Of a stretch of DNA of 58,353 nt, positions 2,744 to 10,502 are shown piece after piece. Source of the DNA: a virus. A program made the translations under genes and the position numbers. The stretch covers positions 1-58,353 of the IMG/VR virus record IMGVR_UViG_3300021364_001428. One strand, written 5' to 3'. The notes under the pieces are model-generated. The model ran no database searches. It was not told where the DNA came from and saw only the letters and a list, made by a program, of their open reading frames with translations. Each line of letters opens with the position of its first letter. The stretch's first letter is position 1.

Positions 2744-2748
2744 ATGTC

Positions 2749-2940
2749 GAGATAAGCTGCGCCTGACCGGCTCAGATCAACAGTATACACGCTTACTTAT
2801 CTCTACCTTGATGGTTATACTCCACAAGGCGTCGGAGCTGACTATAGTTAAATATACTATGGAGAATAATTTATAGTCATCACTATTCTTTGCAACCTCA
2901 GTTTAAATATAATAACAAGACTTATGAGGTATCATCTTGA
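2749..2940 (-). ncRNA. spacer with several long-stem hairpins
   Basis: No ORF. Perfect inverted repeats follow one another: 8 bp (2749-2756 with 2796-2803), 5 bp (2806-2810 with 2825-2829), 8 bp (2839-2846 with 2872-2879) and 6 bp (2895-2900 with 2935-2940). It lies between tRNA-Lys and the next RNA elements in the same transcript. Whether this is one folded RNA or several is not decided. Confidence 0.35.
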
Positions 2941-2959
2941 TTTGTTAGCTTTTACTCCA

Positions 2960-3031
2960 CTTAGACTCCGTCTTTCGACTTGTAGGCGTGAGATTTGACG
3001 CCTCGTTGTTCGGCTGTTAAGCCTATCTAAG
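2960..3031 (-). ncRNA. 72-nt cloverleaf-like RNA, not a canonical tRNA
   Basis: A closing stem of 6 bp (2960-2965 with 3026-3031) encloses three hairpins: GGCT/AGCC with a 4-nt loop (3012-3023), AGGCGT/ACGCCT with an 8-nt loop (2984-3003), and GTC-GAAA-GAC (2970-2979). The size and four-way layout recall a tRNA, but the loops are wrong for D, anticodon and T arms. It abuts the 138-nt tRNA-like gene, three bases after that gene's 3' end. Confidence 0.4.
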
Positions 3032-3034
3032 AGC

Positions 3035-3172
3035 TGGGGAGTGGGGGATTTGAACCCCCACTTCTTCCACACCGGATTTACTTACGCAATGCTAGCTAAC
3101 GCTTTCAATCTTTGTATTTGTGATACTGTCACAAATAGGCGAGAGCGTCATATCCAATTTGACTAACTCCCC
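3035..3172 (-). tRNA. anomalous 138-nt tRNA-like gene with about 62 extra bases
   Basis: On the minus strand the acceptor is perfect (GGGGAGT/ACTCCCC), the D-arm is good (GTCA/TGAC, loop AATTGGATA) and the T-arm is perfect (GGGGG/CCCCC, loop TTCAAAT), followed by discriminator A. Between D-arm and T-arm there are about 86 bases rather than the usual 22-40. They contain a 9-bp hairpin (TATTTGTGA/TCACAAATA) and no obvious anticodon arm. CTCTC follows the D-arm where the anticodon stem should start, but no GAGAG is present downstream. It may be a tRNA with a short insertion, a tRNA-derived structural RNA, or a pseudogene. Isotype cannot be given. Confidence 0.55.
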
Positions 3173-4630: not shown

Positions 4631-6574
4631 TTATTGTACATCGTAAACACAACGTACTGACATGCCATGACCCTTAGACTTACTTGTTTGCCAAAGATCA
4701 TTATATCTAGCAATGCCATTTTTTGTATCTAAAATTGCTCTTGACCAAGCACTTTCTCTGCGATTTCTTTTTAGCGAGAAATGTGAGTCAGAGGTCCAAT
4801 ATGTTGCTATTAAATCTTGACCATAATATATGCCATCAATGTCTTTGATAACACCAGCATAAACCGGGTCAAATTCACTTGCAAATATTTGAGTATGCAT
4901 ATCTTGTGATTCTCCTCTATTTCCAACTGCGTTTAATTCAGCTGCATTAAGACCCAATTCATCTTCAAGGTTTTTCCAATCTTGATCGCTAGGAACTCTC
5001 CATCCAATTGGACAAACACTTTCATTAATAGCATACCAATTATATAAGAAACCTAAAGTGTCAGTAGCCTGTAAGGGGTTATAATACGCACCTGTTTCAT
5101 CTTCACTCCATTCAGAGCCTTGTCCTAATTCATTAATATTTACGCCTGATGTGTATCTTGTAGTTCTTAGGTTTTCAGTAAACCAACAAGTCGAACCAAA
5201 TAAAGCCAAATCATATTCATAGCCGTGATAATTTTCGCTAACGCAATCTTCTTGGTTATCACACACTCCGTTATTATTTAGATCTTCTACGCAATCACCA
5301 CCACAAACACCAATGGCATCGACCTGGTTTCCATTGCAATCGCAGTCGCCTACCGGGATGTTAGCACAACCACATTCGTAGATCTCACCTGGACCGTTGC
5401 AGACGCCGCATACATCATAAGCACCAACACAGTCGTCGACGTCGTCGCAAATACCATCGCTATCACTATCAAACTGACATGTTCCGTTACAAACGCCTAA
5501 AGCGTCATAACTACCTATACAATCATCAACGTCATCACAAACTCCGTCACTATCAGCATCTACTTGACAAGAACCTCCACAAACACCTATTGCATCATTA
5601 TAGAGACAAGAACCGTCGTCAGCGGTTGCCGAAGAATTATAATTACATGCATTAGAGTCTGTACATCCGTTTGCTGATCCATATAGATTTGCTCCGTTTT
5701 GAATCATATCTAATCTTACAACATCAGCCCAATCATGCATAGCCTCAATTTGGCCGTCTGTGAACTTTAACATATTACAAGATTGAGCATACGACATAAA
5801 GTTTCTAGGGTCATCTCCAATACTATAACACGCTGAAGCCCCACACGAAAAGATAGTAGGAGCTGGTTGAGTATCACAAACTAAATCACCTTGAGTTGTA
5901 CAATCAGTTTCGGTCGCAGCATCGTTACAATCTAAATAATCAGAGTAAGGTCCTCTAGGCCCCTGAGATATTTGCTTATGAAAAGTGTGAAATAGGCCCA
6001 TAAAATGACCTATTTCATGAATATTAGTTTTTCCGCTTGAGCTTTGGAATGTACCTGGTCTAACAAAATAACCCCTATTAGTATAAGCGCTTCTCCATGT
6101 AAATCCAGCAACACTGCCCGCCCATTCTAGCACAAATATATTGAGATAATAATCAAGCTGATATCCAAAGGTATTAGCTATAGAATAACTACTATCTACA
6201 ACTTGTTCATAATCTTGATTTCCAAAAACATCAAGGTTGTAGTCATCTAAATTTATGGATCTATAGCCGTTAAATGTCGAGTTGGTAAATTGATCAGTAA
6301 ATGTATTTCCATTAATATCTCTATCTGCTAAAATAAATGTCATTTGAGCATCAGATTGTTGAGGGTCTACACCATTATTCCAACCCTGTAAAAAACCATC
6401 ATTCATAACCGATATAGCATTGGTTACTTGTTGGTACGATAAATGATCCCCGTAACCCGAAGCCTGATCTCCATCGTGTAGAACAGTAACGACAACTGGA
6501 ACTATTTTATCGGTTGGTTGAGCCAATGCACCTAGAGATACCAACGTTGCTAGTAAAAGTGTATAAAATTTCAT
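4631..6574 (-). CDS. exported pappalysin-like (M43) metallopeptidase with Ca-binding/Cys-rich repeats and FISUMP domain
   Basis: 647 residues. An N-terminal signal peptide (hydrophobic to about residue 18, ending GALAQ) predicts Sec export. The M43 metzincin domain spans about 25-290, with an intact zinc motif [11 protein letters not shown] (186-196) and a Met-turn NFMSY (258-262). Residues 304-445 are Cys-rich, with [14 protein letters not shown]-type units like thrombospondin type 3 repeats and VCGG units. Residues 450-645 form a FISUMP domain ([33 protein letters not shown]). Such proteins are common in free-living Bacteroidota but strange in a T4-like phage. No T9SS sorting tail is seen. 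It may loosen the host surface at lysis or act on the virion-host contact; this is inference. Confidence 0.85.
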
Positions 6575-6638: not shown

Positions 6639-9600
6639 TTAGTCTTTGATACATCTTACTGACATGCCATGGCCTTTTGAACCACTAGTTTGCCAAGTAT
6701 CTCTGTATCTTCCAATTCCAGAGTTATTACTAAAGATTGCTCTGTGCCAAGCTGAGTTAGCATACCTAGATCTAATTGTATTGTATTGATCAGAAGTCCA
6801 GTAGTATCCGGCTGAGCCAAACTCTCTAAAGCCTCCGTCGTTATCTACTCTAATTCCACCAAATTCGCCTGAGAAATCAGTGGTTCCATTAGGACCAATA
6901 AACTCACCACTAACCTGAGATATGCCTCTATAACTAGTTGAATTTAATTCAGACCTTGGCATTTGTGCCGAAGAAGTTTCTAATAATTTCCATTCGTTAT
7001 CAGTAGGTACATGCCAACCAGTTGGACAAATATTACTATTTTCTATAGCATACCAATTGTATAGATATCCATAGTCAGTAACATTATTGGCATCATTATC
7101 ATAAGAACACCTAGCCGGAGAAGTGGTAGATCTCCATGATTGACCATCTGTTACTTCTACTATAGCTACTCCATTTACGTCTGTAGTCGTTCTTAAGTTT
7201 TCTGTAAACCAGCATTTGGCATCATCGCCGGTTCCAAAAATAGCAACAGAATATGTATGACCATCTAAAGTTGGACTTAAACAATCACTAATTTCTAGTG
7301 CTTGAATATTATCACAAATGCCATCGTTGTTCTCATCTAAATCACAATCACCTCCACAAATTCCTATTGCATCTGGAACGTTGCCTTGACAGTCACACTC
7401 ATCTTTAGGAACACCTAGACCTCCGCAAACTCCGCATTCATCGATTTCTAAAGCTTCTCCTTCTTGTTGAGTAGCCCATGGTTCAAAGTTACAGGAGCTT
7501 GGTTTACTACCATTAGAACCTCCTGTTACGAAAGGATCCATATTACCTAAGACCTCGGGAACTATATTTCCTCCAGTAACACATCTAACTGGATATCCAG
7601 ACGTACTAGAACCAGCGAATGAACCGTCTTCTAAAGGACCAAATTTAAAGCTACCGGAAACAGGGGCTCTAGCTGCTATTTCATGTTCTCTTTTTATATA
7701 GAATGTAGGTATCCACGTTTGACCATGTGGACGATTATATGCATAAGCGTCAGATGCCCAATATCCTCCCCAACCTGCAACTGTTCCAAATCTATCACAT
7801 TTTCCAGTATAAGCTTCAGCGTTAAATTGATATTCATTATCAGTATAACCCCAAGCAAAAACTTGAGTAACTGCGTCTTCTGCCAGAAGCTTACTTCTAG
7901 AATTTTCGCCAGTCACTTCATCTAAATCATGCCAATCTTGCCAAGAAGCAACTCTCCATCCAGTTGGACATAATCCTCTTGCATCTTGAACAGCGTCATA
8001 ACTATAATAAGATTTATTTCTTTCTTTGGCAACAATAGACTCGGGTCTATAATAATATGTCGATACTCCTTCGTCTGCGGCTATTTTAGTTTGCCAAATA
8101 GAATTAACTGTTCCAACGTTAGGATCGCTTATACCACTTGGTAAATCATTGACTGTAGGAATAGAATCTCCGTTAGCATATCTAGTAGTTGTTAATTCAT
8201 TTGCAAACCAACATCTATCTCCAATAGAAACCAAGTCATAGGTTCTTCCATAATATTCTAAAGTAGGAGAAGTACAACTATTTGTTCTAGTAATAAATTC
8301 AGTATCTTCTATTGTTTGACCGAATGTGGTTCTAGCATAGTATGTAGTAGCTTCTGCTAAACCATCTATTACTACATTTGTAACTGCTCTACTTGGGTGA
8401 TTTGTAGGAGAAACAGTTCTAATTTCAAACACAGTATCGGTTACTAGAATTGTTCTTGCTGGAACAGAGAAAATCTCTAAAGATGCCACGTTTTCTAGAT
8501 TGTAACCTCTTTCTCCGAGCGTTATCTTTGCAATAATAGCGTCAGTTCTACGTTCATAGCTGGTAGAAACGCTAGTTAATGTAGTTGAGTATGCATCGTC
8601 ACAAAAACCATTATTAACTAAAGGATCAGCTAAACAAGAAGCCTCAGTAGAAACGAAATCATTTGGAATAGTAAAGTTATGAATACCTTCATTAAATCCT
8701 AAAGCAAATTCTCCATTACTATCTAAATCTACTTCAGTAAAAGTAAACATGGGGGTTGATTCTCCTTCTTTTACTGTAATGTAACATCCATTTGTACATG
8801 AGCTAGACCTAATTATAATAGGGCTATTAGTTATACCCTGCTCCATTTCGAATCTATAGTTGCCGGGCGCTAAGTAATAAATGTTTTCAAACTCAGTTTG
8901 AACATCTTGATCTGTTACCAAGTGACCCGTTATAAATGGAAAAGGTTCATCGTCTGGAGTTTCACCATAATATAAGAATTTAAAATCTTCTCTGTTCTTA
9001 GTTCTATGAGCTTTAAATCCTCCTGCCCAATATTTTCTACCGTCTAAAATTAATTTATCGTTATCGACATCTACAATGTCCATATCTGTATAAACCCTGG
9101 ATCCATTATAACCAGCTGAAATACTTAAGAAACCATCTTGCGTTTTATTAAACTGATGCGTCGCCGTATTATTACCAACATATTCATCATCTAAATTAGT
9201 AACTTCAGCCGTAAAGCTCCAAGTTTGAAAATCAGTCAATTGAACCTCTGGAAACTCAATATTAAATACGCTCCCAACTCCTAAAGTAGAAGTTAGATCT
9301 TGATGATCTATAGTGTAAGTAATACTAGCGTCTTGATCACATGTCACAGTAACAGACCAAGTCGCTTCTGTAAAGTCTCCATTATTTTCTAATTCTATAA
9401 TAGGAGTATATTTATTATAGCCTGTTCTATTAATAGATATGCTATTTATCGCTAAGTCATGAACAGCTTGCGCTGTCCAAACATAATTGGTTAAGTCGCT
9501 TCTTAGAGTAGAAAGAGTAGATCTCATTCTATCTACTTGACCTTGAGTAAACCTCCTCTTGCAAAAATCTCCTGTGTCATCCATGTAGTTATATGTGTCA

Positions 9601-10502
9601 GGCTCTTGGTTAAGAGGAGTACCGTAGAAAACTTCGCAACGATTAGTACAAATATTGCTACAGTTTCTTACAGTAGGCGGAGTATCACAAACAAAGTCTC
9701 CTTGGTTAGAGCAATCCGATTCGGCATCTGCAGCAGCACATGTTGGTGTATTATGCCAAGTCTGATAAAGACCTAGATAAGTAGCTACAGCTTCTATAAG
9801 TTTACCATTTAAACCTCCATTTACGTTATGGAAGTTTCCATAACCCAATCTATTGTGCTGAATAACTACGCCGTCTCTATCTGTTTTATTTTCAACTGGG
9901 AAAATACCAAAGGCTGTACCTCCACAGCCTCCATCGTTGTCGTTAACCTCAGAAGCCACCCAAATGTTTAGGTAGTTTTCTCTAGGCCAACCCGTAGCTG
10001 CTTTAATTTGATTTTCGTTAGGTGTTAAATCTTGATTATCTTCTAAAACCATACCATATTCAGCATATGAAGGATCAGAAGACATATCATGCCTAAGAAT
10101 ACCAGATGTAGGGTTTCCATTAGGGTCTCTATGTGCTAGTTCAAATTGAATACCTGCATCGATCGATATAGCTTCAGCGTCTTCGTCCCAATATGGAAGC
10201 CATGTATTTCTAAATCTTTCGCTTAGATTTTGAACAGCTGTTGTAATTTGCTCTCTAGAAACATTTGCAGAAAGAGGCGTTTCTATAAAACTAGGAGTTA
10301 CGTCAACTACGTCGCCAGTATGTAATACGTGGAAAACAACCGGGATTGTGTAAATATCAGCCGGATCGTAATTAGTAGATACGGACTCAATATTATTAGA
10401 TATAACGGTCTCTGCTTTTTGTAAAGCTATCATATTAGCATCTTGAGAATATCCAACAGATGTGAATATTAAAGCTAAAGTCAAGTTAAATAATTTTTTC
10501 AT
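6639..10502 (-). CDS. exported M43 pseudo-peptidase with CARDB-like and two FISUMP domains
   Basis: 1287 residues with a signal peptide (to about residue 19, SVGYSQ). An M43-like domain covers about 50-340. At the zinc motif, where family members read HEIGHYLGLYHTW, this protein reads EAVATYLGLYQTW (237-249). The catalytic Glu and all three zinc His are lost, while the fold residues and the NYM turn (305-307) stay. A CARDB-like beta domain follows (345-452), then beta-rich regions and a fibronectin-like stretch (640-740). FISUMP 1 is at 745-976, a Cys-rich VCGG region at 1004-1066 and FISUMP 2 at 1074-1287. The last domain is paralogous to the C-terminus of the active peptidase downstream (both end [15 protein letters not shown]). 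It probably arose by duplication, and may be an adhesin or a partner of the active enzyme. Confidence 0.85.
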   Translation of the reverse strand: MKKLFNLTLALIFTSVGYSQDANMIALQKAETVISNNIESVSTNYDPADIYTIPVVFHVLHTGDVVDVTPSFIETPLSANVSREQITTAVQNLSERFRNTWLPYWDEDAEAISIDAGIQFELAHRDPNGNPTSGILRHDMSSDPSYAEYGMVLEDNQDLTPNENQIKAATGWPRENYLNIWVASEVNDNDGGCGGTAFGIFPVENKTDRDGVVIQHNRLGYGNFHNVNGGLNGKLIEAVATYLGLYQTWHNTPTCAAADAESDCSNQGDFVCDTPPTVRNCSNICTNRCEVFYGTPLNQEPDTYNYMDDTGDFCKRRFTQGQVDRMRSTLSTLRSDLTNYVWTAQAVHDLAINSISINRTGYNKYTPIIELENNGDFTEATWSVTVTCDQDASITYTIDHQDLTSTLGVGSVFNIEFPEVQLTDFQTWSFTAEVTNLDDEYVGNNTATHQFNKTQDGFLSISAGYNGSRVYTDMDIVDVDNDKLILDGRKYWAGGFKAHRTKNREDFKFLYYGETPDDEPFPFITGHLVTDQDVQTEFENIYYLAPGNYRFEMEQGITNSPIIIRSSSCTNGCYITVKEGESTPMFTFTEVDLDSNGEFALGFNEGIHNFTIPNDFVSTEASCLADPLVNNGFCDDAYSTTLTSVSTSYERRTDAIIAKITLGERGYNLENVASLEIFSVPARTILVTDTVFEIRTVSPTNHPSRAVTNVVIDGLAEATTYYARTTFGQTIEDTEFITRTNSCTSPTLEYYGRTYDLVSIGDRCWFANELTTTRYANGDSIPTVNDLPSGISDPNVGTVNSIWQTKIAADEGVSTYYYRPESIVAKERNKSYYSYDAVQDARGLCPTGWRVASWQDWHDLDEVTGENSRSKLLAEDAVTQVFAWGYTDNEYQFNAEAYTGKCDRFGTVAGWGGYWASDAYAYNRPHGQTWIPTFYIKREHEIAARAPVSGSFKFGPLEDGSFAGSSTSGYPVRCVTGGNIVPEVLGNMDPFVTGGSNGSKPSSCNFEPWATQQEGEALEIDECGVCGGLGVPKDECDCQGNVPDAIGICGGDCDLDENNDGICDNIQALEISDCLSPTLDGHTYSVAIFGTGDDAKCWFTENLRTTTDVNGVAIVEVTDGQSWRSTTSPARCSYDNDANNVTDYGYLYNWYAIENSNICPTGWHVPTDNEWKLLETSSAQMPRSELNSTSYRGISQVSGEFIGPNGTTDFSGEFGGIRVDNDGGFREFGSAGYYWTSDQYNTIRSRYANSAWHRAIFSNNSGIGRYRDTWQTSGSKGHGMSVRCIKD

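Follow-up and report, generated by a model that had tools for sequence, protein, structure and literature searches.

A predicted family of non-decoding tRNA-like RNAs with a folded 3' domain in large T4-like phages

Comparison with its homologs indicates that the tRNA-like gene at positions 3035-3172 on the minus strand of the window (the whole 58,353-nt stretch of IMG/VR record IMGVR_UViG_3300021364_001428 analyzed here) almost certainly belongs to a conserved, structured RNA that does not decode. The whole RNA is called RNA-A, its tRNA-like domain the TLD, and the part behind the discriminator base the 3' domain. We propose RNA-A as a new family of non-decoding tRNA-like phage RNAs, whose architecture is well supported and whose function we infer only. 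The best explanation overall, which has about an even chance of being right, is that large T4-like phages carry a functional non-decoding tRNA-like RNA which is dimeric and acts on a tRNA-binding host factor.

Architecture of the tRNA-like domain

The features of RNA-A in the window are as follows.

3035..3172 (-): TLD, 138 nt including the discriminator base A (3035); Rfam tRNA model 43.4 bits, model R2 56.5 bits
3166..3172 (-): acceptor stem 5' strand GGGGAGT, paired with 3036-3042
3147..3163 (-): D-arm GTCA-AATTGGATA-TGAC, loop GG retained; compensatory changes in relatives
3138..3143 (-): extended helix at the anticodon position, 5' strand CTCGCC; its partner is GGTG-T-GG at 3067-3073, read by inspection; the homologous helix covaries
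3115..3137 (-): extra 9-bp hairpin, a variable insertion; counterpart in L050, other members without
3075..3110 (-): conserved module GATT-GAAA-...-GTA-AATC, closed by GATT/AATC; aligned with L121, L124, L125, L127 and L128
3091..3096 (-): hexamer GCTAGC, self-complementary, a proposed site of kissing-loop dimerisation; palindromic in 14/14 aligned relatives
3067..3073 (-): extended helix 3' strand GGTGTGG, partner of CTCGCC at 3138..3143
3043..3059 (-): T-arm GGGGG-TTCAAAT-CCCCC; Rfam tRNA match
3036..3042 (-): acceptor stem 3' strand ACTCCCC, paired with 3166..3172
2955..3034 (-): 3' domain; model R1 107.4 bits, compensatory changes

The 138-nt gene reads GGGGAGT TA GTCA AATTGGATA TGAC ... 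GGGGG TTCAAAT CCCCC ACTCCCC A. All acceptor (7/7), D-stem (4/4) and T-stem (5/5) pairs form, and the Rfam tRNA model (RF00005) matches with an E-value of 5.8e-6 and a score well above its gathering score of 29. These values bear out a preliminary description of the gene as having perfect acceptor, D- and T-arms without a normal anticodon arm. The extent it gave, 3035-3172, holds for the TLD itself, yet leaves out the attached 3' domain, which runs 80 nt further (2955-3034). RNA-A thus measures about 218 nt in the window, and about 190-240 nt across the family. The predicted fold of the gene is more stable than those of 200/200 dinucleotide shuffles (z = -4.2).

RNA-A has the acceptor, D and T stems of a tRNA, together with the D-loop GG and a TTCRANT-type T-loop, and lacks the 5-bp anticodon stem, 7-nt loop and U33 of a decoding tRNA. 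The Rfam alignment bypasses 78 nt, from the end of the D-arm to the variable region, and ARAGORN called 11 tRNAs within the window, 3035-3172 not among them. Such RNAs are overlooked by tRNA gene finders: ARAGORN misses RNA-A, and Rfam labels it a plain tRNA.

IMG/VR was searched for homologs using the sigma-factor neighbour and DNA patterns as queries, which yielded about 30 contigs with 21 distinct TLD sequences of 110-144 nt; given the scans used exact patterns, this distribution is a lower bound. The three tRNA arms (acceptor, D and T) are retained by all 21 sequences, and each arm shows compensatory changes.

In place of the anticodon stem, the window has an extended helix with one bulge (CTCGCC / GGTG-T-GG), whose support comes via relatives. 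In the ten relatives with a clean helix, all seven consecutive pairs from position 27 (7/7) show compensatory change, the sixth and seventh being the equivalents of positions 32-33 (TT/AA, TC/GA, TC/GG, CT/AG, CC/GG, TT/GA). Because these equivalents pair Watson-Crick and covary, a decoding loop, spliced or unspliced, is excluded for RNA-A on comparative grounds. The window's subfamily, the window included, has a shorter helix with a bulged base, as read by inspection (CTCGCC/GGTG-T-GG; CCAAC/GTT-A-GG; CCAACC/GGTTGG), and the module GATT-GAAA-...-AATC above it is common to the window and distant members. Between helix and module lies the 9-bp hairpin TATTTGTGA/TCACAAATA (3137..3129 with 3123..3115). 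This hairpin, pointed out in the preliminary description, does exist, but it is a variable add-on outside the conserved core, found here and, with 11 bp, in L050 only.

The same pairs bear on a decoding tRNA with a removable intron in the anticodon region, a very improbable reading. The insertion is in the right place for one, group I introns can occur in tRNA genes of phages, and strings resembling anticodon loops occur in some members, e.g., CTTCTAA in L121 and CTTTTAA in L128. However, the positions equivalent to 32-33 form covarying pairs with the 3' side, U33 is not kept across the relatives, and the insertion is present in all homologs among the loci examined. It is also much too short for a group I core, as had been anticipated, its size lying far below. 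When the covariance-model check proposed earlier was run on RNA-A, the tRNA model matched and the group I and group II intron models did not (E<=5). Hence the covariation at 32-33 and the absent intron-model match rule out an intron-bearing tRNA, and the earlier suggestion of a tRNA with an unusual insertion finds no support.

A minimal tmRNA without its mRNA-like part is an even fainter prospect. tmRNA shares with RNA-A the tRNA-like acceptor and T arms at its ends and a long helix replacing the anticodon arm, and one of the contigs with RNA-A also carries a tmRNA-type mini RNA (L130:6437-6500). In contrast with tmRNA, which is without a D-stem, RNA-A has a full one, and it has no G3.U70, tmRNA D-loop motif, tag reading frame or match to the tmRNA model (RF00023).

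Among Rfam families in the same orientation at E<=5, RF00005 was the sole match to RNA-A; the only other match was a sub-threshold one to a plastid 3'UTR model on the opposite strand. Together with the conserved, covarying homologs, this supports the other earlier suggestion, a new tRNA-derived RNA. Within open-licence papers, no description of RNA-A was found.

The 3' domain and genomic setting

The 3' domain (about 80 nt, 3034..2955) abuts the discriminator base without a linker in every homolog. Directly after that base, every member has the order GCTCTTRRATAGG-hairpin-CCGAACAACGAG-hairpin-CTACAA-hairpin-GAGTCYAAGTGG. In the window, the closing helix P1 (3031..3026/2965..2960) encloses hairpin A (3023..3012), hairpin B (3003..2984) and hairpin C (2979..2970, with a GAAA loop). 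P1 reads CTTAGA/TCTAAG, with variants CTTGGA/TCCAAG and CTTAAA/TTTAAG.

In the alignment of the domain, 95.1% of cells are paired and 9/19 pairs have both partners changed; the score for covariation is 0.168 versus 0.098 for shuffles (0/500 reach it) and at most 0.062 for slid structures, values obtained on an alignment fitted to the model and so biased toward its structure. Model R1 matches the window's 3' domain with 107.4 bits and an E-value of 1.9e-30, a figure to be read in light of the window being part of R1's training set and of covariance-model E-values being rough. Model R2, built without the window, gives the window's TLD 56.5 bits, versus 46.2 for the best ordinary tRNA (74 sources).

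All full 3'-domain matches with E < 1e-10 are preceded by a TLD, and all R2 matches above 46.2 bits in the 74 sources are a TLD joined to a 3' domain. Barring one truncated contig end, the sources searched held neither a 3' domain without a TLD nor a long TLD without a 3' domain. TLD and 3' domain are probably one molecule.

This linkage also weighs on the idea of a decaying tRNA pseudogene, whose probability is close to nil. The lack of a usable anticodon would suit decay; against it stand compensatory changes across the 21 distinct sequences, obligate linkage to a conserved 3' domain, and the close relative L001, whose TLD is identical at 138/138 bases while the surrounding 2.8 kb is 90.7% identical (0 changes in 138 nt versus 9.3%). 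Covariation, the L001 identity and the linkage thus rule out tRNA decay; simple decay of an ordinary tRNA at this place, named earlier as what would refute a new RNA, was looked for in relatives and not found.

RNA-A is found mostly in tRNA arrays, the window's lineage included, and sometimes alone. In record-wide searches each positive record had exactly one copy, even where the contig measured 167-212 kb; of the 50 records sharing the sigma factor, only 4 have RNA-A. Two close relatives, L011 and L012, are without it at the corresponding site, which lies between tRNA-Ile and the conserved element that comes next; therefore, RNA-A was gained or lost as a unit. BLAST found 0 homologs in 50,697 phage records. 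Three genome contigs matched by DNA patterns (L138-L140) were rejected as chance, with P1 and TLD both missing.

In other lineages, solitary copies adjoin gp32-like, ligase-like or CCA-enzyme genes. With the sigma factor, gp32-like, CCA-enzyme and ligase-like neighbours differing by lineage, there is no constant gene partner, which argues for a stand-alone RNA gene. A cis-acting element, in which RNase P would enter at the TLD and the 3' domain would shape processing, stability or expression of the following genes, is unlikely, though it retains some weight. RNA-A is co-directional with its neighbours; in six related contigs, the gene for a gp32-like ssDNA-binding protein follows about 300 nt downstream of it, and T4 gene 32 has a regulated leader. 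However, downstream genes differ by lineage, the next gene is an ordinary tRNA in many members, and the conservation of the TLD arms far exceeds what a processing site needs.

A link to the phage CCA-adding enzyme, suggested by L128, was rejected: the enzyme occurs in 12/33 records without RNA-A versus 3/28 with it. Proteins with Poly A polymerase/CCA-enzyme head domains are common in this phage group (15/61 records, e.g., L128:7616-8339 (+)), and such phage-encoded proteins fit tRNA genes without an encoded CCA.

The window itself encodes T4-like parts: a split DNA polymerase, portal, head protease, SbcCD-like pair and ribonucleotide reductase. Its portal protein is nearest to those of uncultured phages of 462-735 kb, followed by Sphingomonas phage PAU and Prevotella Lak phages. 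Two large minus-strand proteins (4631-6574 and 6639-10502) have FISUMP (Fib_succ_major) domains, the second judged by eye; in the first, Pfam also detects an M43 peptidase domain.

Palindromic loop and proposed mechanism

At one aligned position, a hexamer is palindromic in 14/14 short-module members, in three kinds (GCTAGC, ACTAGT and GATATC), and two of these three self-pairs are changed on both sides. Only 8/200,000 column shuffles retain palindromes as well, a figure to which shared descent may contribute, since the shuffles ignore it. The loop hexamers of other subfamilies are TGATCA, TCGCGA or TAATTA; there, a complementary second copy in the same RNA permits intramolecular pairing, so that the palindrome is weaker evidence of a dimer.

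Pairing between two molecules is a plausible account of the retained palindrome and the simplest one. Homodimerisation of RNA-A by kissing loops, judged from these sequences, could equally well prove true or false. A somewhat less probable reading is that RNA-A acts as a monomer, with the palindrome serving as an intramolecular pseudoknot or helix strand or as a protein site. For this reading, GTTAGY at positions 6-11 could pair with the hexamer in many members, and a complementary second copy lies downstream in L094, L126, L131, L132, L137 and L120. However, GTTAGY, the sole candidate partner within short-module members, fails there in L049 and is imperfect in L124, and across the family it also fails in L094, L120, L126, L130, L131, L132 and L137. 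Palindromicity holds in all members despite these failures, and an intramolecular partner needs no palindromic loop.

A mechanism can be proposed. Host RNase P would cut the transcript at the tRNA-like 5' end, and P1, which starts about 4 nt past the discriminator base, would keep 3' tRNA processing away, so that both domains stay joined. The palindromic loop would pair with its counterpart in another copy of RNA-A to give a dimer, and the resulting particle may then occupy a tRNA-binding host factor as mimic or scaffold, be it a processing enzyme, EF-Tu, the ribosome or a tRNA-cleaving defence nuclease. This last step, taken from resemblance only, is the most tentative: that RNA-A mimics the ligands of tRNA factors is suggested by analogy and is rather doubtful.

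The discriminator base (position 73) is A, C or T among members, and four members have acceptor A.A mismatches at 3-70 or 4-69. With the acceptor stem and the discriminator base both variable, no one synthetase identity stands out; this variation speaks against a charged-tRNA role and for elbow recognition. A particle presenting two tRNA mimics, in which the outer shape of the tRNA is retained, the anticodon arm has become a self-dimerising arm and the 3' end is a folded cap, is possible at slightly less than an even chance; if true, it would be a kind of tRNA-like RNA not previously described. At about 190-240 nt, RNA-A is easy to produce, and dimerisation, aminoacylation, CCA addition and protein partners are directly assayable.

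Comparison with known RNAs and neighbouring structured RNAs

The nearest known systems are T4 stable RNAs C and D and the GOLLD and ROOL RNAs, and RNA-A enlarges this small set of noncoding RNAs from phage tRNA arrays. The T4 species 1 and 2 RNAs (rnaC, 139 nt; rnaD, 119 nt) are likewise small and stable and come from within a T4-like phage's tRNA cluster, and toward its 3' end rnaC has a canonical T-arm; we know of no function assigned to them. However, rnaC is missing a canonical D-arm and has weak acceptor pairing, neither RNA has the conserved module, and their folds differ from that of RNA-A. Under strict filters, R1 matched nothing in T4 (a run without positive control), three huge uncultured phages, PAU or Lak-B4.

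GOLLD and ROOL, encoded by phages or prophages near tRNA islands, assemble into homo-oligomers via kissing loops; covariation of the palindrome hints at a similar assembly in RNA-A. They measure about 660 to over 800 nt, versus about 190-240 nt for RNA-A. An identity with GOLLD or ROOL was rejected, given no Rfam model of either matches and RNA-A falls short of the size criterion of >600 nt.

YrlA bacterial Y RNAs are modular noncoding RNAs that, like RNA-A, combine a tRNA-like part with another folded part; in RNA-A, by contrast, the tRNA-like part precedes the other domain and its acceptor ends are closed, and there is no Rfam match. Self-complementary loops pair between two copies of one RNA in the HIV-1 dimer initiation site and in tRNA-Asp anticodon dimers. 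Their sequence and setting are unrelated to those of RNA-A, and the analogy is limited to the proposed contact.

Further tRNA-like or structured RNAs were observed in these phages. Downstream of RNA-A, a second unannotated structured RNA lies at 2744-2922 (-) in the window, L012:4840-5032, L011:4838-5028 and L050:7450-7634, four phages only. Among these four sequences, 8/34 predicted pairs show compensatory change; there is no Rfam match, and an H-type pseudoknot is probable (CTCC/GGAG with CCTTG/CAAGG, CCCTG/CAGGG). Directly after RNA-A, L118:1990-2100 (+) is a tRNA-like stretch with a TAGTCAAG...CTTGACTA acceptor and a GAGAG-TTCAAGT-CTCTC T-arm, whose D-arm and anticodon arm are not clear and for which Rfam makes no call. 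Also after RNA-A, L093:about 9945-10190 (+) has a leucine-tRNA-like start (ATGGTGGAATTGGAAGACACGAG), about 150 nt of unrelated sequence and a tRNA-like end; it may be a tRNA that is interrupted or decaying. The mini RNA at L130:6437-6500 (+) consists solely of a 62-nt tRNA-like domain of tmRNA type (59.5 bits with the Rfam tmRNA model, mRNA-like part absent), with a TGGGTTCGAC motif and G3.U70 as in alanine acceptors.
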